Of a stretch of 32,569 bases of DNA, positions 2,009-18,390 are shown piece after piece. Location of the stretch: assembly GCA_947467625.1 (NCBI GenBank), contig CANIJN010000034.1:1-32569 (forward strand), given 5' to 3'. Source of the stretch: Opitutia bacterium. Lineage in GTDB: Bacteria; Verrucomicrobiota; Verrucomicrobiia; Opitutales; Opitutaceae. Both the position numbers and the translations under genes were made by a program. Positions within the stretch are counted from its first letter, which is position 1. Every line of letters starts with the position of its first letter. The notes under the pieces were generated by a model. It saw only the letters and a list, made by a program, of their open reading frames with translations. It was not told where the DNA came from and did not search any database.

Positions 2009-4327
2009 TCAGCGAGTGGGCGCGGGCAGCGAGCGCGTGAGGAAGGCGCGGATACGGGCGCGGACTTCAGGCGTGTCGAAGGCTTTGCCGCCGTGGCCGG
2101 CACCCGCGACGACGTGAAATTCCGAGGGCACGCCGACTTCGCGGAGGCGGGCGTGGAGGCGTTCGCTTTGCACGAGGGGGACCTGGTCGTCTTGATCGCC
2201 GTGGATGATCAGGAACGGTGGATCGTCTTTGGTGATGTTGTGCAGCGGGCTGACTTGGCGGGCGCGGTCGGCGCGGTCGCGGACGATGCCGCCGAGGAGT
2301 TTTGCGCCGTTGGAGGTGGCGAGGTCGGCGTCGGTTTTTCCGGGACCGGGGACGTTGACGGGCATCGTGAGCATGTCGCTCGCGCCGTAAAAATCGATGA
2401 CGGCACGGACGCGGCTGGAGATAGTTTCGTCGGTGGCGGCGGGTGCGGTACCGACGATACTCGCGAGGTTGCCGCCCGAGGAGCCACCCGAAATGGCGAA
2501 GCGCTCGGGGTCGAGGCGGTAGGTGGCTGCGCGGGTGCGGAGCCAACGGATCGCGGCGCGCGCGTCGTCGATTTGCGCGGGCCACTGGGCGGCCCAGCTT
2601 AGGCGGTAGTTGAGACTCACAACGGCGTAGCCTTCGGCGGCGAGCCACGTGAGCGGGCAATTTTCTTTGGAACCGTTTTTCCAGCCGCCGCCGTGCGTCC
2701 AGAGAATGACGGGGAGCGGATGGGCGGGGTTGGCGGTAGGGAGATAGAGATCGAGGAGGAGTGCGCCGGTGGCGGGACGGCTGTATTCAAGATTCGCGAT
2801 ACGCTGCACGCCGGCAGGGAGGGCGGGGCGCACATCGCCGGCTGGGCGGAGGTGGGTCCCCGGGGTTTTCGTGAGGGCATCGCCGAGATCGGCGCGGGCG
2901 GCGGCGACTTCGGCCTGGAGGCGGGCGACGATGGCGGGGTGGGCGGCGGCGACGTTGCGGAGTTCCGACGGGTCCGTGGTGAGGTTATAGAGAGCGAGTT
3001 CGGTTTTTTCGACGCGGTAACCGTGGCGGCTGGCGATGCCGCGGATGCCAGAGAGCTCGATGGATTCGGGTTTCATTTTACCGTAATTAGAGGGCTTACC
3101 GCCTAGGCCGCGCTCGGCGGCGACGACGAGGTAGTCGTGCGGCACGTGGAGTTTCCATTCGCCGCGGCGGACGGCGTGGAGCTCTTCGCCGGAGTAGAAC
3201 CAAAAGTCGTCGCGGCCTTTCGCGCCGGGTTGGCCGAGGAGGAGTGGCGTCAGGTCGGTGCCGTCGCGTTTCACGTCAGTGAGCGTTGCGCCGGCGAGGG
3301 CGGCGAAGGTCACGTGCAAATCCATGGTGGCAAACGGGGCATCGCTGACGCGTGCGGCGGGGACTTTGCCCGGCCAACGGACCAGACAGGGCACGCGCAT
3401 GCCGCCCTCGAACGTGGTGAGTTTACCCTCGCGGAGAGGCCCCGCGGAGCCGGCGTGTTCGCCGTAGGAGAGGAAAGGGCCATTGTCGGAGCTGAAAATG
3501 ACGAGCGTGTTGTCGTCGAGGCCGAGGCGTTTGAGGGTGGCCATGATTTGGCCGATGGACCAATCGAGTTCCTGGACGACATCGCCGTAGAGGCCGCGCT
3601 GGCTGGTGCCCTTGAATTTTTCGGAGGCGAAGATGGGGACGTGCGGCATGATGTGCGGCACGTAGAGGAAAAACGGTTTGGCGCGGTTACGCTCGATGAA
3701 TGAGACGGCGCCCTCGGTGAGGCGGCGGGTGAACTGTGATTGGTCGGGATCGAGCTCGATGATCTCTTCGTTGGCGTAGAGTGGCAGGGAGGGGATGCCC
3801 GGGGTGGTGGGGTGGAGGGGACCGTTGTCGTTGGAGTAGGGGATGCCGAGCCACTCGTCGAAGCCGCGGCGCGTGGGGAGAAATTGCGGATGATGGCCGA
3901 GGTGCCACTTGCCGAAAATCGCAGTCGCGTAACCGCGGTCTTTGAAGACTTGCGGGAGGAGTTTTTCCTTGGAGTGAAGACCGGTGGGGCTCGTGTGGTT
4001 GAGGGCGCCACTCATGCTGACGCGGTTGGCGTAGCTACCCGTCATGAGTGCGGCGCGAGAGGCGGTGCAGACGGATTGGGACACGTAGAAACTGGTGAAG
4101 CGCGTGCCCTCAGTGGCGAGGCGATCGATGTGCGGCGTCTTGATATCCTTGGCTCCGTAGCAGCCGAGGTCGCCGTAGCCGAGGTCATCGGCGAAGATGA
4201 AAACAATGTTTGGTGGCGGCGCGGGGGGCGTGGCGGCGAGCAGTGCGGAGGTCGCAGCGATGGCCGTGAGGACGAGCAGAACGCCGAGTTGGCCGGCGAG
4301 ACGGCGGAGAGAAAGGGTGGGCTCCAT
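2009..4327 (-). CDS. Secreted sulfatase fused to an alpha/beta-hydrolase (esterase) domain
   Basis: This 772-residue protein joins two enzymes. After a hydrophobic export signal (residues about 11-31), residues 38-490 form a type I sulfatase: metal-binding DD (47-48) in FADDLGYGD, the formylglycine site CTASR (87-91), GKWHLG (139-144), SSDNGP with D281/N282, and GGMRVP. The C-T-A-S-R site needs maturation by a formylglycine-generating or radical-SAM enzyme not seen here. Residues about 505-770 form an alpha/beta hydrolase of the BD-FAE/acetylesterase kind: oxyanion motif HGGGW (545-549), nucleophile motif GGSSG with Ser616, Asp713 in HGDQD and His745 in GAGHG. One export signal serves both domains. 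The likely role is joint desulfation and deacylation of a sulfated polysaccharide (inference). The start is the ATG at 4327; an internal frameshift is excluded because the frame is continuous. Confidence 0.9.
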   Translation of the reverse strand: MEPTLSLRRLAGQLGVLLVLTAIAATSALLAATPPAPPPNIVFIFADDLGYGDLGCYGAKDIKTPHIDRLATEGTRFTSFYVSQSVCTASRAALMTGSYANRVSMSGALNHTSPTGLHSKEKLLPQVFKDRGYATAIFGKWHLGHHPQFLPTRRGFDEWLGIPYSNDNGPLHPTTPGIPSLPLYANEEIIELDPDQSQFTRRLTEGAVSFIERNRAKPFFLYVPHIMPHVPIFASEKFKGTSQRGLYGDVVQELDWSIGQIMATLKRLGLDDNTLVIFSSDNGPFLSYGEHAGSAGPLREGKLTTFEGGMRVPCLVRWPGKVPAARVSDAPFATMDLHVTFAALAGATLTDVKRDGTDLTPLLLGQPGAKGRDDFWFYSGEELHAVRRGEWKLHVPHDYLVVAAERGLGGKPSNYGKMKPESIELSGIRGIASRHGYRVEKTELALYNLTTDPSELRNVAAAHPAIVARLQAEVAAARADLGDALTKTPGTHLRPAGDVRPALPAGVQRIANLEYSRPATGALLLDLYLPTANPAHPLPVILWTHGGGWKNGSKENCPLTWLAAEGYAVVSLNYRLSWAAQWPAQIDDARAAIRWLRTRAATYRLDPERFAISGGSSGGNLASIVGTAPAATDETISSRVRAVIDFYGASDMLTMPVNVPGPGKTDADLATSNGAKLLGGIVRDRADRARQVSPLHNITKDDPPFLIIHGDQDDQVPLVQSERLHARLREVGVPSEFHVVAGAGHGGKAFDTPEVRARIRAFLTRSLPAPTR

Positions 4328-5850: not shown

Positions 5851-7233
5851 TCACTTTGCGCCGGGTACGGTGCCGGCTTTCACGAGTACCATTTTATCGG
5901 GGTCGAGGTGTTGCTTGATCGCGCCGTTGACCTGCGCCTTCGTGAGCGCGCCGATGCGGGCGGGATATTGGTCGATGAAGGAGAGTTCGAGATCGCGGTT
6001 GAGCGTGGCGAGGATGGTGCCGGCCATGCCGGACGTCGTGGAGAGGGCGACTTTGAAGGTGCCGGCGAGGCCGGTTTTGCGTTGGGCCAGTTCGTCGTCG
6101 GTGATCCCTTGCGTATGCCACTCGATGAGTTGGCGTTTGGTGGAGGCGACGCCTTTTTCGAGCATCTCGGGGGCGAAGTTGGCCGAGATGCGCCAGTCGC
6201 CGTCGACGAAGGTGTCGCCGGCCACGTAGGAGCCGATGCCGTAGGTGAGCCCTTCTTTGTCGCGGACGTTGGCCATGAGACGGCCTGTGAAGCCGCTGCC
6301 GAGAGCGGCGGTGCCGACGCGCAGGGCGAGGGTGTCGGTATCACCATAGCGGAGACCGGTGGTCTGGCCCCAAATCATTGAGATGTTGGTCTTTTCTGGC
6401 ATGAACACATTTTGGTCGCGCGCGGCGTCGACGGCGCCGGGCTTGGCCGGAGCGGGCGTGGGCGGACGGACGCCACCGGTCCAGCCAGCGAAGACTTTGG
6501 TGATTTCATGCTTGGCGGAGGCGGCATCGATGTCGCCGACGAGGACGAGACGCAAAGTGGCGGGGCCGTAGTATTTCGCGTGGAAGGCCTTCACTTCGTC
6601 GAGGGTGATTTTTTCCGCGCTCGCGAGGATTTCGGCGGAAGGTGCTTGGCGGTTGGGGTGGCCGACCGGATACACCGCGCGGCTAAAGGTGTCGTCGGCG
6701 CGGAAGTCGGTCTCGTCGAGCTGGCGGCGGTAGTTGCCCGCGAACTGTTTCTTGAGCTTGGCGAATTCCTCGGGAGAAAATGCGGGCGAGCGGAGTTGTT
6801 CGGCGATGAGGCTGATGACGAGCGGGAGATCGGCGCGGAGGCACCGCGCGCTGATGTTGAGCGCGCTCGGGCCGGTGCTGAAGGAGATCGTCGCGCCCGC
6901 GCTGCCGAGGAGTTGGGCGATCGCGAATTTGTCCTGCTTGGTTGTGCCTCGGTCCAACATGCCCCCGGTGAGGTCGGCGAGAGCGGGGCTGGTTTCGGGG
7001 CTGACGGCATCGCCGGCGGCGAGGGAGCCGCGGACGGTGATGACATCTTTCACGCCGGTTTTTAAAATGACGAGGTCGATGCCGCCGATTTTTTCGCGGA
7101 CGGCATTTTTCGCAACCTGGGCGTGGCTTGCGAGGGTCGAGCACGAAAGGAGTACGGAGGCGAGGAGAGCGGCACAGGTGCGAGACGGGGAGGCGGCGGG
7201 ACGGCGCGCGGAGGAGAGGGGGAGGAATTTCAT
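5851..7233 (-). CDS. M16-family protein lacking the zinc motif (regulatory/partner subunit)
   Basis: The 460-residue protein has the M16 (pitrilysin-like) two-domain fold. It starts MKFLPL at 7233 with an export signal ending near SHAQ (residue 39); a lipobox-like LLSC at 28-31 is possible. A frame extending to 7464 exists but overlaps the upstream gene. Where active M16 enzymes have HxxEH, this protein has ADLTGGML (residues 86-93), so all three metal ligands in that motif are missing and it cannot be a zinc peptidase alone. It keeps the C-terminal substrate-binding pair R324/Y331 in NVRDKEGLTYGIGSY. It lies 89 bases downstream of an M16 gene with an intact zinc site. By analogy with bacterial heterodimeric M16B proteases, the two should form one enzyme in the periplasm. 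Confidence 0.88.
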   Translation of the reverse strand: MKFLPLSSARRPAASPSRTCAALLASVLLSCSTLASHAQVAKNAVREKIGGIDLVILKTGVKDVITVRGSLAAGDAVSPETSPALADLTGGMLDRGTTKQDKFAIAQLLGSAGATISFSTGPSALNISARCLRADLPLVISLIAEQLRSPAFSPEEFAKLKKQFAGNYRRQLDETDFRADDTFSRAVYPVGHPNRQAPSAEILASAEKITLDEVKAFHAKYYGPATLRLVLVGDIDAASAKHEITKVFAGWTGGVRPPTPAPAKPGAVDAARDQNVFMPEKTNISMIWGQTTGLRYGDTDTLALRVGTAALGSGFTGRLMANVRDKEGLTYGIGSYVAGDTFVDGDWRISANFAPEMLEKGVASTKRQLIEWHTQGITDDELAQRKTGLAGTFKVALSTTSGMAGTILATLNRDLELSFIDQYPARIGALTKAQVNGAIKQHLDPDKMVLVKAGTVPGAK

Positions 7234-7260
7234 GGGAGCAGAGAGCGTTGGATTGAGTGT

Positions 7261-7303
7261 GGGGCGGGGTTTAGACCCGCATGGGCAGCCAGAAAGGCTG
7301 CCC
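7261..7303. repeat. Double hairpin between the two M16 genes
   Basis: Two adjacent perfect stem-loops are seen: GCGGG (7264-7268) with CCCGC (7276-7280), and GGGCAGCC (7283-7290) with GGCTGCCC (7296-7303), loop AGAAA. There is no T-run on either strand. This looks like a REP element inserted inside an operon. It could tune the ratio of the two subunits. Confidence 0.6.
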
Positions 7304-7322
7304 CCTAATTTCGACGGAGCGT

Positions 7323-8738
7323 TTACTTGGCGGCGGGCGGCGCGAGCGGGATGAACCAGCCGGTGACGCTCTGGTTGAGGTCGAGGTAGCGATTGGCGAC
7401 GCGGGCTACGTCGGCCGTGGTGACTTTGGCCATGGCGGTGTCGAGGGTGTAGTAGAGCGTCCAATCGCCGGCGGCGATGTCTTCGTTGAGATTGCCGGCG
7501 ATCGAGAAGTAGCCGTCGCGTTTGTAGGCGGTGGCGGCTTTGATTTTACCGAGCGCGGTGGCGACCTCGGCGGCGGTGACTCCGGCGGTTTTCACGCGGT
7601 CTATTTCTTCGAGGAGCGCTTTTTCGACCTGCTCGTGGGTGGTGCCGGGGGCGAGGTTGGCGTAAATATTCAGGAGCGAAGGATCGTGGAAGTAACCGGT
7701 GTTGGCGCTCACGTTGAGGGTGAGATTTTTGTCGGTGAGGGCGCGGTAGAAGCGGCTGGTTTTCCCGGAGGAAAGGATGCTCGCGAGGACGTTGAGGGCC
7801 GGAATATCGGCGTGGCGGGCGGCGGGAGTTTTGTAGGCGAGGCCGACGACGCCGAGTTCGCCGGCGCGGCGGATGGTGACGCGGCGCGGTCCGCTTTGCG
7901 CGGGCTCTTCGGTGTAAACCTGCGGGATGGGTTTCGGCGCGCGCGGGATGGCGCCGTAGTATTTTTTGACGAGCGCGAGACCGGCGGCGGGATCGAAGTC
8001 GCCGACGATCGTGATGGTGGCGTTGTCGGGCCAGTAGAACGTGTCGTAGAACTCGCGGAGTTTTTCGATGGAGACCTTCTCGATGTCGGAGCGCCAGCCG
8101 ATGGTGGAGTGGTGGTAAGGGTGGGCTTGAAAGGCGGCGGCGGTGATCTCCTTGTCGAGGGCCTGCTCGGGATCGTTTTCTCCGATTTCGAATTCGTTGC
8201 GCACGACGGTCATTTCGGGGCGGCGGTCCTCCTCGCGGAGCCAGAGGTTGCGCATGCGGTCGGCTTCGATGGCGATGTAGCCCTCGAGGTGCTCGTTGCC
8301 GATTTCGGCGTAGTAATTGGTGCGGTCGAGGTAGGTCGTGGCGTTGTAGTTGCCGCCGACGCGTTCGAGGAACTGGTCGCTGCTGGTGCCTTTGGTGCGG
8401 TTAAAGGCGTCGGAGCCTTTGAACATCAGGTGCTCGAGGAGGTGGGTGGCGCCGGTGGTGCCGGTGACCTCGTTGCGGGAGCCGACGCGGTAGGTGACCA
8501 TAAAGGTGACGACGGGTGCCGAGTGCTCGGGCAGGAGCAAAACGGCGAGCCCATTGGCAGCGAGCTGGTATTCGGAGATGGCGCCGACGGTTTTGACGAA
8601 GGAGAAGCCGTCGGCTTTGACCGGTGCGCTGGGGGGATTTTCGGCAGCGCGAAGGCGTCCCGGCGACAGGCTCAGGGCGAGTGCGGCGGAGGCGAGGGCG
8701 AGCGTGACGAAGCGGGGGCGGAGGAGGGAGACGTGCAT
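7323..8738 (-). CDS. M16-family zinc metallopeptidase (catalytic subunit), exported
   Basis: The 471-residue M16 peptidase has an export signal (residues about 9-31). The zinc site is intact: H99-L-L-E102-H103 in THLLEHLMFKG, with the third ligand E182 in VVRNEFE. The C-terminal half is present, but the usual R/Y substrate-binding pair is altered: SRFYRALTDKNLTLNVSA has R329, and a Leu (341) where Tyr is expected. That pair is kept by the neighbouring zinc-less M16 protein, so the motifs are divided between the two subunits. The likely substrate is peptides or small unfolded proteins in the periplasm. It lies 158 bases downstream of the PIG-L gene on the same strand. Confidence 0.93.
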   Translation of the reverse strand: MHVSLLRPRFVTLALASAALALSLSPGRLRAAENPPSAPVKADGFSFVKTVGAISEYQLAANGLAVLLLPEHSAPVVTFMVTYRVGSRNEVTGTTGATHLLEHLMFKGSDAFNRTKGTSSDQFLERVGGNYNATTYLDRTNYYAEIGNEHLEGYIAIEADRMRNLWLREEDRRPEMTVVRNEFEIGENDPEQALDKEITAAAFQAHPYHHSTIGWRSDIEKVSIEKLREFYDTFYWPDNATITIVGDFDPAAGLALVKKYYGAIPRAPKPIPQVYTEEPAQSGPRRVTIRRAGELGVVGLAYKTPAARHADIPALNVLASILSSGKTSRFYRALTDKNLTLNVSANTGYFHDPSLLNIYANLAPGTTHEQVEKALLEEIDRVKTAGVTAAEVATALGKIKAATAYKRDGYFSIAGNLNEDIAAGDWTLYYTLDTAMAKVTTADVARVANRYLDLNQSVTGWFIPLAPPAAK

Positions 8739-8896: not shown

Positions 8897-9838
8897 TTAA
8901 TCAAAAAACGGGAAAAGCCGTTTGAGGGCGGCGCGGTCGGGTTGGGTGCCGTATTCGCAAAGCTCGAAGGCTTCGGCGTGTTTCACGGTGGCGGCGGTGG
9001 CGCCGGGATACCACGCGGCGAGCTCTTTCGAGAAGCGGAGGGCGATGGCTTGGTAGCGGCGGGAGAAGTTTTCGCGGACCTGGCGCTGGCGTTCGTGCTG
9101 GCCGGCGGCGTCGGCGGGGTAAAGGGCAGCGGAACCGTTGGCACCCCCTTCGGCGAACTGCGAGACCATGACGGCGAGGGCGTCGAGTTTTTTTTCGATG
9201 AAGGGGTCGATGGAGATGACGATGTCCGGCTTCGACGGGGCGGGCTTCAGGAAGCGGTCGGTGTAATACATGAAGACAGGATTTTTCTTCATCGCGGGCA
9301 CGTCGGGGCAGAAGAACGGGACGGTGACCATAAAGGCGGCGTCTTGCACGAGGACGCCAGTGTAGCGGTGGTCGGGGTGGTAGTCGTTGGTGCGCGGGCC
9401 GAGGACGAGATCGGCGTTCCACGCGCGGATGAGACGCGTGAGAGTACGGCGGTTTTCGAGCGTGGGCTCGAGTTCACCGTCGTGGTTATCGAGCACGACG
9501 CCTTGAATACCTAAAATGCGGTGGGCTGCGACGACTTCGACCTTGCGGCGGAGGGCGAGGGGGCCGCCGGCTTCGCGCCAGTGGCCGATATCGCCGTTGG
9601 TCACGGAGACGACGAGCACATGGTGGCCGGCGGCGGCCCAGCGCGCGGCGGTGCCGCCGAGTTGGAGTTCGCAGTCATCGGGATGGGCGCCGAAGGCGAT
9701 GATGCGGAGCTTACCGTCGTCGGCGGGCGGCATCGTGATGCCGGGAATCGCGGCGCGGAGGGCGGGGGCGAGCGTGAGGAGCAGGGCGAGGAAAGCGATG
9801 ATCGCGGAGGGGCGAGGGCGGAGGGAGGGGCGTTTCAT
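8897..9838 (-). CDS. Secreted PIG-L (LmbE-like) N-acetylhexosamine deacetylase family protein
   Basis: PIG-L enzymes are zinc-dependent deacetylases of N-acetylglucosaminyl groups and related substrates. The 313-residue protein has the hallmark HPDD (52-55) in FGAHPDDCEL and the second metal motif YHPDH (H154, H157). It starts at the ATG at 9838; an in-frame TTG at 9868 is less likely because the MKRPSL start gives a normal signal peptide ending near ALRAA (residue 30). The signal indicates periplasmic or secreted location, which suits carbohydrate deacetylation rather than mycothiol-type synthesis. The true substrate is not visible. Together with the two M16 genes it may form a transcription unit. 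Confidence 0.87.
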   Translation of the reverse strand: MKRPSLRPRPSAIIAFLALLLTLAPALRAAIPGITMPPADDGKLRIIAFGAHPDDCELQLGGTAARWAAAGHHVLVVSVTNGDIGHWREAGGPLALRRKVEVVAAHRILGIQGVVLDNHDGELEPTLENRRTLTRLIRAWNADLVLGPRTNDYHPDHRYTGVLVQDAAFMVTVPFFCPDVPAMKKNPVFMYYTDRFLKPAPSKPDIVISIDPFIEKKLDALAVMVSQFAEGGANGSAALYPADAAGQHERQRQVRENFSRRYQAIALRFSKELAAWYPGATAATVKHAEAFELCEYGTQPDRAALKRLFPFFD

Positions 9839-10199
9839 GGGGAAGGAGCGGAGGAGTGTGAGTGTCAAGTGTGGGTGGACGCGAGGTGGACGCCAAGGGA
9901 TTTGGTGGTGCTGGGCAGCGTACTCCCGTCTGATCTGGCCACGTCGGTTTGCACGGCCAGCGCGTCATGCGCACTGCGGTCGCGTTTCGACACCGCCCGC
10001 AACGGCGCAGCTTCGCGCGCTCTGTAGTACGTATCGGCATACGGAGCGCGTCTTTCTCCGGCGGCACGGCCCCATGAGGATCGAACCTGCAACTGCCGAG
10101 CGTCTTCGCAGCACACTGAAGGTTATGTCCTCCGGAAACCGGTCGGGCGGTTTCGTCAGTGGAGCTTAGGATGTGTCCGCGTCCCTGTCGGCGGCGCGC
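9839..10199. other. Intergenic region upstream of the PIG-L gene
   Basis: The 361-base gap holds the presumed promoter of the PIG-L/M16 set and the 3' end of the upstream transcript. A stem CTGGCC (9935-9940) / GGCCAG (9955-9960) is visible. A tRNA T-loop-like string near 10080 was examined and rejected. No gene was recognised. Confidence 0.45.
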
Positions 10200-12056
10200 T
10201 TAGGGCACTTCGTAAACTTCCACGAGGCTCACCCCGCTGCGGCCGGCGCTGTCGGCGACCTGGACCGAGTAGAGGCCCGGGTCGAGCGAGATGATCACGG
10301 CGGCATCCCGGCTGTTCTCGGGCAGTGCGAAGCCACCGACCAAGGCCGTGGCCGCGCGCAGCTCGGCGACGAGGGTGCCTTGGTGCCAATTATCGTTCGC
10401 GATCACGAGGCGGTTGTTGGCGTCGTAAATTTGGAGAACGGGATCGGGGAGGGTGCCCGGTACGCCGAACGCCGCGAGGGCCGGACCGATGCCGCGCACG
10501 ACGAAGAGTTTGGCCCGCGCACCGGCGACCACGAACCCGGCGAAATGGGCGTCGCCGTCGGCGCCGGTGAGCGCGCGGCTGGAAATATTGATGAGCCGCG
10601 CGCCGAGCGTGAGACGATAGACGAGGATCATCGAATCGGTACTGAGCGCGGCCTTGAACGCAGCGCCGTCCTGAAAGCCGTCCGTCGTGGAAAAGTCATT
10701 ATCATTGCCGACGAAGAGGAAGAAATCATCGGGCGCGGTGGGGTCGAGCGCGGGGGCGAGAGCGAGGCTTTCCCATTTTTCGGCGAGCGTGTTGCTGTTG
10801 CTGGAAGAGCTGTTGTTGAGCCCGAATTTCACGAGCTCGGCGTTGTCGTTGAGGTTGATCAGGACGGCGGACGTGGCCGGTGTGACGGACGCGGCGAGCA
10901 CGCCGTTGGGGGCGACGGCGGTGCTGGTCGTGTCGAAGGCGGTGCCGGCGATGTTGGTGGCGCCGGTGAGATCGTAGACGAGGATGGCGCGGTACAGGGA
11001 GGCGGTCGAACTGGAGCCGCGGCCGTTGCCGTCGCGCGCGAGTACGAGAAACTGGCGGCTGCTGAGCACCACGAGATCACCGACGGAGGCGACCTGTTGC
11101 ACGCCGGCTTGGGTGTAGAGGGGCAGCGGCAAGATCCACTCGCCCTTGAGGGTGGCGGCGGCGGGATTGGAAATGTCGTAGGCGAGCAGACGTGTGTGAC
11201 GGCGCAGGCTGCTGCCACCGGAGCCGCCGTCCTGGCGCGTGGCGGACTGCATGAGCGCGTAGAGCGTGCGGCCGTCGCCGGACGCGGCGAGGCCCTCGAA
11301 GCCCTGATTGTTTTCACGACCCGTGGTCGGCTCGCTGGGTGAAGGGGAGGGTTGGCCCGCGGCAGGGTTATCGGCGGAAAACGAGTCGCGGCCGCTGCGC
11401 TTCGGGATCAGGGCTTCGGGCGGACGGATCGCGCCGAGCAAGACCCCGTCGGCAGAGAAGCGGTAGAGGTAGGGGCCGTATTCATCGCTGATGAAGAACG
11501 AGCCGTCGGGCAGGAGGACGAGGCCCTCGGGGTCCACGGAGAGGCGACCGGTCGAGGCTTGCGGCAGCACGGGAAACCCAAGGCGGGTGCCGAGGCCCGC
11601 GGTGGTGGTCGCGGGATCGAGGGAGGTGAGGGCCGTGCCGTTCGATTCGGTGAGTTTTTTCGTATCCGCGAGGGAAAGGCCGAGTTGGATTTGATTGGCG
11701 GCGCCGTTGGGTGCGGGGGTGAAGGAGAGGTCGAGGCGGTGGGTGCGCGGGGTGTAGTTGGTTGCCGAGCCCGCCCGGGTGATACCCCGGTCGGGCTGCG
11801 CGTAGAGTGTCCCGGTGTAGGTGCCATCGGCCGCGCGGCGCCACGTGCGCAGGTCGAGCGCGAGGCCCGAGAGCGAACCGAAGGTTTCACCGAACTTGTC
11901 CCGCTCCGCTGCGGGGATCCGGCCGACCCCGACGAGACCCTTGTGGGAAATCGTGGTGCCTCCAAGGGTGACCGTTTGGGCGGCCGCCCGGGGGGTGGCA
12001 AGGGACAGGGCGGCGAGTCCGAGCATGGCGGCGAAGGAGGGGACGGTGCGGCGCAT
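10200..12056 (-). CDS. Secreted esterase-like phytase-family protein with shared C-terminal E-x-Y-E-V-P domain
   Basis: The 618-residue protein has a signal peptide (to about residue 26, ATPRAAAQ). Residues about 40-485 match the esterase-like activity of phytase family (beta-propeller): SVDPEGLVLLPDG, FFISDEYGPYLYRF, NNQGFEGLA and AEKWESLALAP are its usual acidic, metal-binding motifs. The family is named from a phytase with esterase-like activity; the actual substrate here is unknown. Residues 488-618 (10203-10595) are a separate domain, from NISSRAL to the very end VEVYEVP, which recurs at the C-termini of two other secreted proteins in this window. It is transcribed divergently from the VTC operon, 98 bases away. 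The ATG at 12056 is the natural start. Confidence 0.85.
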   Translation of the reverse strand: MRRTVPSFAAMLGLAALSLATPRAAAQTVTLGGTTISHKGLVGVGRIPAAERDKFGETFGSLSGLALDLRTWRRAADGTYTGTLYAQPDRGITRAGSATNYTPRTHRLDLSFTPAPNGAANQIQLGLSLADTKKLTESNGTALTSLDPATTTAGLGTRLGFPVLPQASTGRLSVDPEGLVLLPDGSFFISDEYGPYLYRFSADGVLLGAIRPPEALIPKRSGRDSFSADNPAAGQPSPSPSEPTTGRENNQGFEGLAASGDGRTLYALMQSATRQDGGSGGSSLRRHTRLLAYDISNPAAATLKGEWILPLPLYTQAGVQQVASVGDLVVLSSRQFLVLARDGNGRGSSSTASLYRAILVYDLTGATNIAGTAFDTTSTAVAPNGVLAASVTPATSAVLINLNDNAELVKFGLNNSSSSNSNTLAEKWESLALAPALDPTAPDDFFLFVGNDNDFSTTDGFQDGAAFKAALSTDSMILVYRLTLGARLINISSRALTGADGDAHFAGFVVAGARAKLFVVRGIGPALAAFGVPGTLPDPVLQIYDANNRLVIANDNWHQGTLVAELRAATALVGGFALPENSRDAAVIISLDPGLYSVQVADSAGRSGVSLVEVYEVP

Positions 12057-14871: not shown

Positions 14872-17800
14872 TTACGGCACCTCATAAATTTCGAACAGGA
14901 TGACACCGCTCGCGCCTGCCTTACCGGTAATTTGAGCGGTGTAAGGTCCCTCTGCGAGCGTGAGCAACAGGACGGCGTCCTTGCTATCAGAGGGCAGGGC
15001 GAATCCACCCACCGCCGCGGTGGCGGCGGCGACTTCGATCGGCGTGGCACCCGCGCTACCGCGGGTGCTCCAGTCATCATTGATCGCCACTTGCACGCTC
15101 GCCTTGTCAAATAGCGTGAGCACGGGGTCGGCCAAAGTGCCCGCCACGCCGAACCCGCCGAGCGTAGGGCCGATGGCACGGATGAGGAGACGTTTAGGTC
15201 CGGGGCCGCGCACCACGACACCGCCGATCAAGACCTCGTCGCCGCCACGCACAAGGCCACGGGTTGAGAGGTTGAGCGTACGGCCGATCCCGGGGTCGAT
15301 CTCGTAGAGCTCCGCCAAACCGACGCCGGTGCCGGTCGTGGCGCTGGAAATTTGCAGCGTGAATTGTCCCGCTGGGAGGCGGGCGAGGAGGGCGGCGTCT
15401 TTGCTCCCTTTCGCGAACGGGAATGCACCGACTAACTTGGTTAGATCGGCAATGTCGTCGGCGTCCGGGCCTGTCTCCCACGCGCTGTTGCGGGCGAGTT
15501 CGCGACCACGGGAGTCGAGGATGCGCAGCACCGGTTGCGCGAGCGCTCCGGCGACGCCGAAACCGGTCAGGGCGGGGCCGACGGCGCGCGCGAGGTATTG
15601 CTTGCCGGCGGTGTCGTTTACAACGACGCCGGCGATCAGGATATTTTCATCCGAGCCGATGAAACCGCGGCTGGACAAGTTTGCGAGGCGCGGCCGAGGG
15701 GCGAGGGTAGGGGATCGCGCGCCGCCCACCGCAGAACTCCACGTCGTGGCAGGCCCGTCCGTAGTGGTAAAATTAGGACGATAGCTGCGGGCCTGGAGAT
15801 CGGCGGTGGCCGGGACAGTCACGGCGGTGGAGGACAGGCGCACGGCGTGGGCCAAGAGGCCGCCAAAGGCGCGCGGGTCGGTGCCGTCGGTGGTGTAGGC
15901 GAGCTGGGTGCCCGGGGCCGGCGTTACCACGAGGGTGCCGGCACCGGCGACGACGGTCGGGGGCGCCGCGAAATGATCATCAATCCAGAGCGCGCGACGG
16001 GTCAGCCAAGATTTCAGCGTATCAATTTCACCCTGCCAACCGCCGCCGAAGCGGGGTGCGTTATCCGGCCAGCGGGCGGCGTCGCGCGCGGCCGCCGCGG
16101 GACCGATTTGGGCGGCTAGAGAATCGACGAGCGTGGCGAGGCTTGGCGCGGAGAGTTCTGTGCGGCGCAGCAGTTGCCAGCGGTCTACCCACGCCTGCAG
16201 GAAATCCGGGTCTTGCGCGAGGAGACCCCACCAACCGTAGTTCCAAAAATCGGTGGCTCCATTGTCGCCCTGCCAGACTTCGTGGTTTTGGGACCGCGGA
16301 TCACCGCCGCCCAAGGCTCGGTCAAAATCCCAGACTGGACCGGCCTGGAGGCGACCTTCGCGATCCTTGTTCATGTAGGTACTGCGGACCAGACCATCGA
16401 CGTTCATTCCGAGGACGTTCAGGATGTGGTGGTCGACCCAAGACGCGCGGTCGATGTAGTCGAGGTACGTGCGATGTTTCCACCCGGAGGCGAGATTGGC
16501 CGTCAGGGCATCGTCGAACTGTTGAAAATAATTACTGACGTAGTCCCGTTGCGAGGGGTGCAAATCGGCGAGTTTGGGTTGGCTGACCCCGAGGGCGAAG
16601 GGCAGGCCGGGGAAGCCGCGCCGCAGCTGGAAATTGAATTCGTTGCTGTCCGGCAGATCGAGTTTGAGGAGGTAGCCGCCGGTGATTTTTTTCGTGCCGA
16701 GGTCGTTGGGGGCGAGCTTCGCGAGGTCCACGCGCTTGCTGTCGATGCGCAACGAATCAGTCAGGATGTAGATGCCCACATAGTCGCTCTGATCGAGGTC
16801 GCCGCCATTGGCATTGAAGAACAGTTCCACCATTTGGGTGCGCGGTGCCCAGCGGCCGAGCCGGTTGCTCAGGGCGTAAATGAAGGCGTTATTGAGAAAC
16901 GTGCGGTCGTAATTCCACGGACCGATGAGCGTCCAGTTCTCGAACGTGGGCAGGCCGTAGAGGGGCAGCGGGTTGTCGCGGCCCAAGGTGTCGTCGAGTC
17001 GCAGGGTGAAACTTTTCTTGGGGAAATCGGCGGAAGAGGCGCCGCGCACGTTGGTGGTAATGGAACTCAGCGCGGTCGGCGGTACCGTCATCGCGGTGTT
17101 GCCGGTGGCCGGACGAGACCACGTGTAAATCCAGCCGGGGCGCACGTTGTCACTTTTCACGAGCGAACTGGTGCCGTGGGTGTCGATCACCATCAATGGC
17201 AGTTGGCTGGAAAACGTATCGAGCCGCGCGCTACCGGTCGTGGCCAACCGCACATAGTGCGCGGTGGCGGGAAAGCCGGTGGCGAGATTGTCGGCACCGT
17301 AGATCATGGCCCGCACGATCGACGAAGTTGAAACCGTGAGGGGCCCCGTGTAGATCGTCGCCGTCGGGCCGGGCTCCGGGACGGTGGCACCGGTCGTCGT
17401 GGGCGGCGCGATCACGTAGCGAATCCGTTGGCCCGCAGTCGCGCCGGACAGGGTGACCGTGATGGTGTCGGTGAACGGGCCGGACGCGCGGGAGAAGACC
17501 ACGCGTTCGGTGAGCAAGACAGTATTCGGTCCTCCATTACGCGCATTGGGCGTCGGAGTGCGGAAAAAGCTCCGCGTTGATTCCTCGCCGGAGCCGGTGG
17601 GCTGGGTCACGCCGTAGGACACGTCGACCAATTGCGGGGGATACGCGGGGGCAAACTCGGTGGCGGCGGTGGTGCCGTCCGGTTTGATGAGGGCGAGGTA
17701 GCCGCCCTCGGCGCTCAGGGCGAAATTGGTGTGCAAGGGCTTCGCAGGATCGCGGCGATTTTCGTTCGAGGCCCAGACGATCAGGTAACCGCCGGCGGGC

Positions 17801-18057
17801 AGCGTCACGGCGGGAAATAGCCATTTCGTTTTGAGCGCTGCGTTGTCGGTGAGATACCAACCGGCGAGGTTGGCCGGCGTGGCGTCCGGATTGAACACCT
17901 CGATCCAGTCCGAGAATACGCCGTCGTTATCGGCGTTGGTCTTCGTGTTGGCCGCGAGAAATTCGGTGATGATGGGATCGGCGCGCATGGCGCTGGGAAA
18001 ACCGAGGGCGAGTGCGAGTGGGAGCAGGGCCCATGGGGGTAACGTGGCGTGACTCAT
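14872..18057 (-). CDS. Secreted CotH-family protein with lamin-tail, chitobiase-like and two shared C-terminal domains
   Basis: The 1061-residue protein starts MSHATL at 18057 with a signal peptide (to about residue 26, MRADP); an open extension upstream looks non-coding. Residues about 28-150 are a lamin-tail domain (ITEFLAANTKT, DWIEVFNPD, LAGWYLTDN). Residues about 185-270 and 700-762 resemble chitobiase C-terminal-like domains (RIRYVIAPP; LAYTTDGTDP). Residues about 285-695 are a CotH domain: NVRGASSADFPKKSFTLRL, ENWTLIGPWNYDRTFLNNAF, and VWDFDRALGGG with D577/D579, the probable metal-binding acids. CotH proteins are secreted atypical kinases. Residues 791-920 (15298-15687) and 927-1061 (14875-15279) are two copies of the domain ending E-x-Y-E; the last residues are FEIYEVP. 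It converges on the VTC-DUF4956-HlyD operon with an 80-base gap. Confidence 0.9.
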   Translation of the reverse strand: MSHATLPPWALLPLALALGFPSAMRADPIITEFLAANTKTNADNDGVFSDWIEVFNPDATPANLAGWYLTDNAALKTKWLFPAVTLPAGGYLIVWASNENRRDPAKPLHTNFALSAEGGYLALIKPDGTTAATEFAPAYPPQLVDVSYGVTQPTGSGEESTRSFFRTPTPNARNGGPNTVLLTERVVFSRASGPFTDTITVTLSGATAGQRIRYVIAPPTTTGATVPEPGPTATIYTGPLTVSTSSIVRAMIYGADNLATGFPATAHYVRLATTGSARLDTFSSQLPLMVIDTHGTSSLVKSDNVRPGWIYTWSRPATGNTAMTVPPTALSSITTNVRGASSADFPKKSFTLRLDDTLGRDNPLPLYGLPTFENWTLIGPWNYDRTFLNNAFIYALSNRLGRWAPRTQMVELFFNANGGDLDQSDYVGIYILTDSLRIDSKRVDLAKLAPNDLGTKKITGGYLLKLDLPDSNEFNFQLRRGFPGLPFALGVSQPKLADLHPSQRDYVSNYFQQFDDALTANLASGWKHRTYLDYIDRASWVDHHILNVLGMNVDGLVRSTYMNKDREGRLQAGPVWDFDRALGGGDPRSQNHEVWQGDNGATDFWNYGWWGLLAQDPDFLQAWVDRWQLLRRTELSAPSLATLVDSLAAQIGPAAAARDAARWPDNAPRFGGGWQGEIDTLKSWLTRRALWIDDHFAAPPTVVAGAGTLVVTPAPGTQLAYTTDGTDPRAFGGLLAHAVRLSSTAVTVPATADLQARSYRPNFTTTDGPATTWSSAVGGARSPTLAPRPRLANLSSRGFIGSDENILIAGVVVNDTAGKQYLARAVGPALTGFGVAGALAQPVLRILDSRGRELARNSAWETGPDADDIADLTKLVGAFPFAKGSKDAALLARLPAGQFTLQISSATTGTGVGLAELYEIDPGIGRTLNLSTRGLVRGGDEVLIGGVVVRGPGPKRLLIRAIGPTLGGFGVAGTLADPVLTLFDKASVQVAINDDWSTRGSAGATPIEVAAATAAVGGFALPSDSKDAVLLLTLAEGPYTAQITGKAGASGVILFEIYEVP

Positions 18058-18175
18058 ATTTTCGTGACTCGAACAGTGCCCCGTCGCGCAAGCAATTCCG
18101 CAATCGAGGTGATTGCGGGCCCGGTTCATTCGCGTTGAGTCCGATTCCGGTAAGCTTGTTTCGCTTGGTTGGAAG

Positions 18176-18234
18176 GGTGGGAGCGAGCTCGTTTGCGACC
18201 GCAAGGAGTCGCGAGCAAGCACGCTCCTATGATG
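18176..18234. repeat. REP-like long palindrome
   Basis: Arms GGGAGCGAGCTCG...GCGAC and GTCGCGAGC...CGCTCC fold back around CGCAAGGA, with small bulges. This has the size and style of an intergenic REP element. It shares the GGGAGCG/CGCTCC arm style with the elements after msrB. Confidence 0.5.
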
Positions 18235-18390
18235 TCTCGCCAAGGCGCAGTCTGTATCTTTTCGGTGAATGCGTTTGGTTTTCATGACTGGTCAAGCCGC
18301 TGTTTTTATGAAACGCAGCGGAGCGAGTGGTCGCATGGCGGCTGATGGGGTTTGGCGACGGGGCCACGGCTGACCAGTGAGTGCCTAGAC

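Follow-up and report, generated by a model that had tools for sequence, protein, structure and literature searches.

Two adjacent genes of an Opitutaceae bacterium predicted to encode the halves of one M16B peptidase, and their single-chain relatives

We analysed a stretch of 32,569 nucleotides from an Opitutia bacterium of the family Opitutaceae (contig CANIJN010000034.1, positions 1 to 32,569), hereafter called the window, with a focus on two neighbouring minus-strand genes whose products we name chain A (upstream) and chain B (downstream). With a probability of about 0.9, each gene codes for one half of a single exported peptidasome of the heterodimeric M16B type, a well-known kind of bacterial enzyme, of which the pair is an ordinary example. 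This reading is based on the partition of the active-site residues between the chains and the conservation of that partition, on the constant gene order, on natural fusions of the two genes, on the M16 fold of chain B and on the two-half model of a fused relative. The peptidase occurs in a single bacterial family both as one chain (18 loci) and as two chains (44 loci). With such close relatives it becomes testable if closure of the clam shell depends on a linker, how one chain gives rise to a two-subunit enzyme or vice versa, and by what route a second signal peptide is acquired.

A preliminary description, made from the letters alone, had placed the pair at 5851 to 8738, and these coordinates proved exact: the ATG of the upstream gene starts at 8738 and the stop codon of the downstream gene ends at 5851. 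The features discussed below are as follows, with the positions of residues and motifs computed from residue numbers.

7323..8738, minus strand: chain A, putative catalytic subunit, 471 residues, PF00675 and PF05193, signal-peptide-like N-terminus, match to 3amj_C at 8.2e-57
8430..8444, minus strand: HLLEH zinc motif, chain A residues 99-103
8193..8195, minus strand: E182 of chain A, predicted to be the third zinc ligand from its alignment with E131 of SPH2681
7716..7736, minus strand: T335-L341 of chain A, site of the arginine/tyrosine (R/Y) pair, both residues missing
7234..7322, minus strand: spacer from the stop codon of A to the ATG of B, with two hairpins predicted by folding
5851..7233, minus strand: chain B, putative non-catalytic partner, 460 residues from the ATG at 7233, PF05193, signal-peptide-like N-terminus
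6961..6975, minus strand: DLTGG, chain B residues 87-91, at the place of HLLEH
6241..6264, minus strand: RDKEGLTY, chain B residues 324-331, with R324 and Y331

Division of the active-site residues between the chains

Chain A contains a single HXXEH, the HLLEH at residues 99-103 already recognised in the preliminary description, and it also retains the third zinc ligand, as E182 aligns with E131 of SPH2681 when counted along the sequence alignment; E131 is listed as a zinc ligand of SPH2681 in the accessible portion of a review (PMC12731061). The HXXEH motif and distal glutamate of the catalytic half of peptidase family M16 (clan ME) are thus both present. Chain B has no HXXEH and carries ADLTGG at residues 86-91 as well as R324 and Y331 within RDKEGLTY, all as previously described, and since HLLEH aligns with DLTGG, the H, E and H of the zinc motif are all missing from it. 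A profile alignment of the A and B groups (hhalign, probability 98.7) placed T335 opposite R324 and L341 opposite Y331, and chain A therefore lacks the arginine as well as the tyrosine of the R/Y pair. The heterodimeric M16B pattern of two chains of approximately 50 kDa (a mass estimated from length alone), one with HXXEH and the other with R/Y and no HXXEH, is accordingly found here.

Pfam assigned chain A to the M16 domains PF00675 (83.5 bits) and PF05193 (120.4 bits), and chain B to PF05193 (104.5 bits), while the PF00675 score of chain B was marginal, at 21.8 against a cut-off of 22.3 with hmmscan and above the cut-off, at 24.4, in a genome search. Neither chain reached the cut-off of any NCBIfam model. 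The scores of chain A were 67.4 for PqqF (cut-off 320), 65.9 for YfmH and 50.9 for YfmF, and those of chain B 42.5 for YfmF and 22 for YfmH; both chains thus match YfmF_fam (NF047422, cut-off 285) and YfmH_fam (NF047421, cut-off 250) weakly, with 22 to 65.9 bits, and are not members of these families.

Among solved structures, chain A was most similar in sequence to 3amj_C, annotated as 'zinc peptidase active subunit' (8.2e-57), followed closely by 3ami_A (8.7e-57). Nearest to chain B by sequence were 3gwb_A (7.5e-35), annotated as 'inactive domain family protein', and 3amj_B (8.1e-30), annotated as 'zinc peptidase inactive subunit'. An AlphaFold2 model of chain B (residues 40-460, 43 sequences) reached a mean predicted local distance difference test (pLDDT) of 95.3 and a predicted template modelling score (pTM) of 0.92, and its best fold match in the PDB was 3amj_B, with a template modelling score (TM) of 0.90 at 26% identity, consistent with the fold of an inactive subunit. 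In this model R324 and Y331 are residues 285 and 292, the former where helix 279-287 ends and the latter where strand 291-299 begins, and they are invariant over the 43 B rows; the available text of the review assigns the R/Y pair to the loop between helix 10 and strand 9 (PMC12731061). The best matches of the two chains, 3amj_C for A by sequence and 3amj_B for B by fold, together with natural fusions of A followed by B, uphold the earlier proposal of complementary subunits of a heterodimeric M16B protease.

A fused relative (locus L173, 911 residues, 23 sequences) was also modelled, with a pTM of 0.85. Over the whole chain, the model matched 9ldy_A with a TM of 0.76, human PreP (4rpu_A) with 0.77 and IDE with 0.70-0.74, and because one half alone would presumably not reach a TM of 0.76, its two halves would be set as in known M16 enzymes. 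The A half is 34% identical to 3ami_A, and its best VIA-align row was 5euf, by its record title a protease from H. pylori, which we take to be PqqE; each of the VIA-align rows shown for this model matched one half.

Conservation was followed in 150 genomes of the family to which the window belongs, using matches at E<=1e-20. A match to chain A was found in 146 of them, many at about 30% identity and taken as paralogues, and a match to chain B in 76. Sixty-two loci with both chains, three further orthologous loci with A only, three with B only and the window itself gave 66 rows for each chain; five genomes (G014, G050, G079, G132 and G058) were counted as single-chain rows only, and three with the chains on separate or partial contigs (G112, G011 and G081) were left out. 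HXXEH is present in 63 of the 66 A rows, window included, the other three being cut by contig ends, and E182 is present in the same 63 (three gaps). R/Y occurs in all 66 B rows and HXXEH in none, again window included, so this family-wide partition is not due to chance. The preliminary description had called the R/Y pair of chain A 'degraded', and Leu341 is indeed there, but the word has the wrong shade since it implies decay: an R at 335 or a Y at 341 is found in 0 of 66 A rows, and the division of labour is therefore old in the family. Loci of other M16 groups (L145-L155 and L162), excluded from the family counts and used as outgroup with 12 A and 11 B rows, have HXXEH in 11 of 12 A rows (one gap) and R/Y in 11 of 11 B rows.

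A wider set was obtained by scanning named genome contigs with the patterns LEHLMFKG and AHPYHH[SP]T, and consisted of the best 80 of at least 589 confirmed candidates, spanning 13 phylum labels plus unlabelled loci; five of the 80 (L167, L168, L169, L173 and L196) hold family loci. HXXEH was found in 80/80 A halves, in part by selection because one scan pattern overlaps it. A B half was found in 77 loci, with an R/Y-type pattern in 77/77 and HXXEH in 0/77. In L212 (one of the 77), the A half has a string resembling R/Y, which was dismissed as a pattern coincidence since it aligns upstream of the R/Y site, and an HXXEH in the B reading frame of L172 was found to sit ahead of the B domain. Plasmid records with a match to chain A numbered 186, all below 60% identity. 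Three loci from drafts titled Rhodocyclaceae, Lysobacterales and Gammaproteobacteria (L163, L164 and L175) are 61-71% identical to chain A, and are either misbinned contigs or cases of transfer.

Predicted function and alternative explanations

Both chains have a hydrophobic stretch in their first 45 residues, with a maximal 12-residue Kyte-Doolittle mean of 2.24 (A) and 2.35 (B). Ahead of the domain, a mean of at least 1.8 is attained by 41 of the 44 B chains from split family loci (values of 1.18 to 1.79 in the remaining three) versus 0 of 18 linkers in fused loci (highest 1.46), which suggests that a split B chain as a rule has its own export signal. The pair is thus probably exported and periplasmic, judging from these N-termini. 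A possible lipoprotein cysteine in chain B is a tryptophan in the sister genomes G091 and G067. Chain A and chain B are separated by only 89 bases from stop codon to ATG, short enough for both to be presumably carried on one transcript.

According to the accessible text of the review, M16 enzymes hold zinc with two histidines and a distal glutamate and activate water with the glutamate of HXXEH, and substrate binding and transition-state stabilisation are aided by the R/Y pair from the opposite half, in a shell that opens and closes (PMC12731061). In the mechanism we propose, chain A would bind zinc through H99, H103 and E182, with E102 as general base, and chain B, a paralogue without a zinc site, would close the clam shell and position R324 and Y331 at the substrate, close to the bond to be cleaved; peptides would be trapped in the chamber and then cut. 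Catalysis may then require both chains, as the preliminary description had stated, although the pairs studied so far disagree on this point. Of the related pairs, TTHA1264 is reported in the same portion of the review to be inactive alone (PMC12731061), and single mutations in either motif reduced the activity of PttP1/PttP2 in the part available of another study (PMC8960859). The occurrence of natural fusions between precisely these two chains provides good, if indirect, support for their acting together as a single enzyme.

Some observations weigh against this interpretation. No match to chain B was found at the above threshold in 74 of the 150 family genomes, some of which are incomplete, and the enzyme is therefore probably dispensable. 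The modelled fusion is a relative and not the window pair itself, and it fits FusC (TM 0.50-0.52) and PqqL (0.38) less well, its degree of opening being uncertain. Finally, recombinant H. pylori PqqE showed about 70% activity alone and full activity with YmxG, as stated in the accessible part of the report (PMC8115454). The latter would also fit a situation in which chain A works alone as a homodimer, like BHP of Bacillus halodurans, which is given as homodimeric in the review portion (PMC12731061), with chain B being a separate or modulating pseudo-enzyme. We consider this improbable, as chain A has T335 and L341 in place of R and Y, both residues are absent from all A rows of the family and present in all B rows, and the chains are either fused (18 of 62 loci) or encoded A then B on one strand (the other 44). 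A non-peptidase scaffold resembling the core proteins of the bc1 complex, which were among the fold matches and are M16 homologues, some of them inactive without HXXEH (PMC12731061, accessible part), is hardly credible given that the zinc site and R/Y are kept in every readable family row and that no respiratory protein was found among the eight window reading frames scanned with Pfam.

One-chain and two-chain forms and the direction of change

A single open reading frame with A first contains both chains in 18 of the 62 family loci, and in 44 they are split, with A upstream of B on the same strand; among the fused loci three are near copies (G018, G143 and G088) and three have an A half cut by a contig end (G087, G143 and G088). 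In the wider set 51 of 80 loci are fused, A then B, 26 are split and in three no B was found. The fused linkers comprise approximately 65-72 residues and are variable apart from a conserved island, P-x-[YF]-Y-R, which is present in 16 of 18 family linkers and on average in 0.01 after shuffling, a figure that is descriptive since the island was seen first and then tested. Among the 17 wider fused loci with a B score of at least 400, 11 have the island (Bacteroidota 7/8, Verrucomicrobiota 3/6, unlabelled 1, Ignavibacteriota 0/1, Fidelibacterota 0/1), two of the wider fused loci, L169 and L173, being repeats of family rows. The island was found in 0 of 34 wider fused loci with a lower B score and in none of the split family chains (including the window, 48 A rows and 45 of the B rows belonging to them). 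It is often followed by D, H or T, and then P, as in L173, L169, L189 and the fused family loci among L101-L143. The linker of the L173 model (432-488) has a pLDDT below 50, so the placement of the island in it is uninformative.

A quick tree of the joined A and B rows calls for four changes of the fused state, of which at least three fall on well supported branches. The fused forms lie on four branches of the family tree. The tree of A alone also needs four changes (all forced) and that of B alone four (two forced), and a single clade of all fused rows was rejected on the quick tree (approximately unbiased test, p-AU 9.6e-6). A wide FastTree of 144 rows, in which branches are long and many rows are of odd make-up, needs nine changes, at least eight of them forced. 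Taken alone, the trees would mean repeated fusion.

The linkers bear on the same question. The fused relatives share the island and hence probably descend from one old fusion, so that the shared linkers, as compared in sequence, suggest either one old fusion followed by repeated splitting or an exchange of the gene middle between lineages, the latter being possible as well. Tentatively, and at somewhat less than even odds, the two-gene peptidase of the window is the product of splitting an ancestral single chain, the split state having arisen repeatedly as the island was lost and the second half acquired a new signal peptide. Repeated fission of a fused ancestor as the only process is no more than suggestive: the island shared by fused linkers speaks for it, but on the rooted family tree it takes nine separate events versus four for fusion. 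Independent fusions alone are possible by the trees, but the island common to the fused forms weighs against them. If fission is true, the family would offer a naturally occurring set of single-chain and two-chain forms of this enzyme, and the island would have a job, such as a latch, a hinge or a processing site, required only in the single chain. By title or the start of the abstract, we found no published work on M16 enzymes changing between one and two chains in a search that left subscription journals mostly uncovered, and the accessible text of the FusC paper (PMC6071955) has no word beginning with 'fusion'.

Spacer, genomic surroundings and known systems

Folding of the spacer stretch (7234-7325) gave the two hairpins with a z-score of -2.62. 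In the sister genome G091 both arms of a hairpin have changed together (CAGCC/GGCTG vs CAGGC/GCCTG), and in G067 the pairing is poorer. The z-score is -2 or lower in seven of the 13 split family loci whose spacers measure 80-190 bases, and many other split family loci have spacers of only 0-41 bases. The palindrome-like look of the hairpin raised the idea of an interspersed repeat, which was rejected since the stem pattern occurs once in its own genome (up to two mismatches) and in one of nine genus genomes, that of the window (up to one mismatch).

The genome contains three further M16 proteins as single chains, on contigs C15 (875 residues), C64 (984) and C89 (986), with HXXEH in the first half and R-x6-Y in the second as judged by string match only; with these, the window pair is one of at least four M16 enzymes there. 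At the 5' end of L013 (G000:C285), a 519-residue M16 frame with R-x6-Y strings and no HXXEH lies at a contig end, and the contig may stop short of its partner or first half.

No neighbour-based clue to the substrate emerged when six window proteins were compared, at E<=1e-8, with the reading frames of at least 100 codons that lie within 5 kb of flank at the 80 wider loci: a pRiA4 ORF-3-like protein alone recurred near the pair, in two loci (L165 and L173). Just upstream of the pair, on the same strand, 8897-9868 encodes a PIG-L deacetylase (best NCBIfam model BshB1, under its cut-off), without a match at this threshold near the pair in the 80 loci. Elsewhere in the window, 2009-4327 is a 772-residue frame in which a sulfatase (PF00884) is joined to a BD-FAE/alpha-beta hydrolase esterase domain (PF20434), 14872-18285 encodes a protein of 1137 residues with CotH kinase, lamin-tail and chitobiase C-terminal domains, and a tRNA called by ARAGORN at 11572-11661, with a two-base anticodon and inside a phytase-like frame of the other strand, is probably a false positive.

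Among known systems, SPH2681/SPH2682 of Sphingomonas sp. A1 (3amj, 3ami) is like the window pair in having HXXEH and the distal glutamate in one chain and R/Y in the other, and among solved structures it ranked first for A in sequence and for B in fold. It differs in that 3amj_B is 26% identical to chain B, and in that the assembly of the window pair is a prediction. The same division between an HXXEH chain and its partner is described, in the accessible parts of the literature, for SPH2681/SPH2682, TTHA1264/TTHA1265 (7v4y), PqqE/YmxG, Bcn-gP1/gP2 and PttP1/P2; for PA0371/PA0372 (4nnz, one subunit) the likeness comes from the record title only. The TTHA, PA, PqqE/YmxG, Bcn-gP and Ptt pairs are from other bacteria than the window pair. 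Bcn-gP1/gP2 and PttP1/P2 are described in the available text as cutting lanthipeptide precursors, of which there was no sign in the eight window frames scanned. FusC, PqqL and the P. gingivalis protein 9ldy, on the other hand, have two M16 halves in one chain, FusC forming the whole clam shell from one polypeptide (PMC6071955, accessible part). This is the layout of the fused relatives of the window pair, whereas in the window two genes are present and both products begin with a signal-like stretch of their own.

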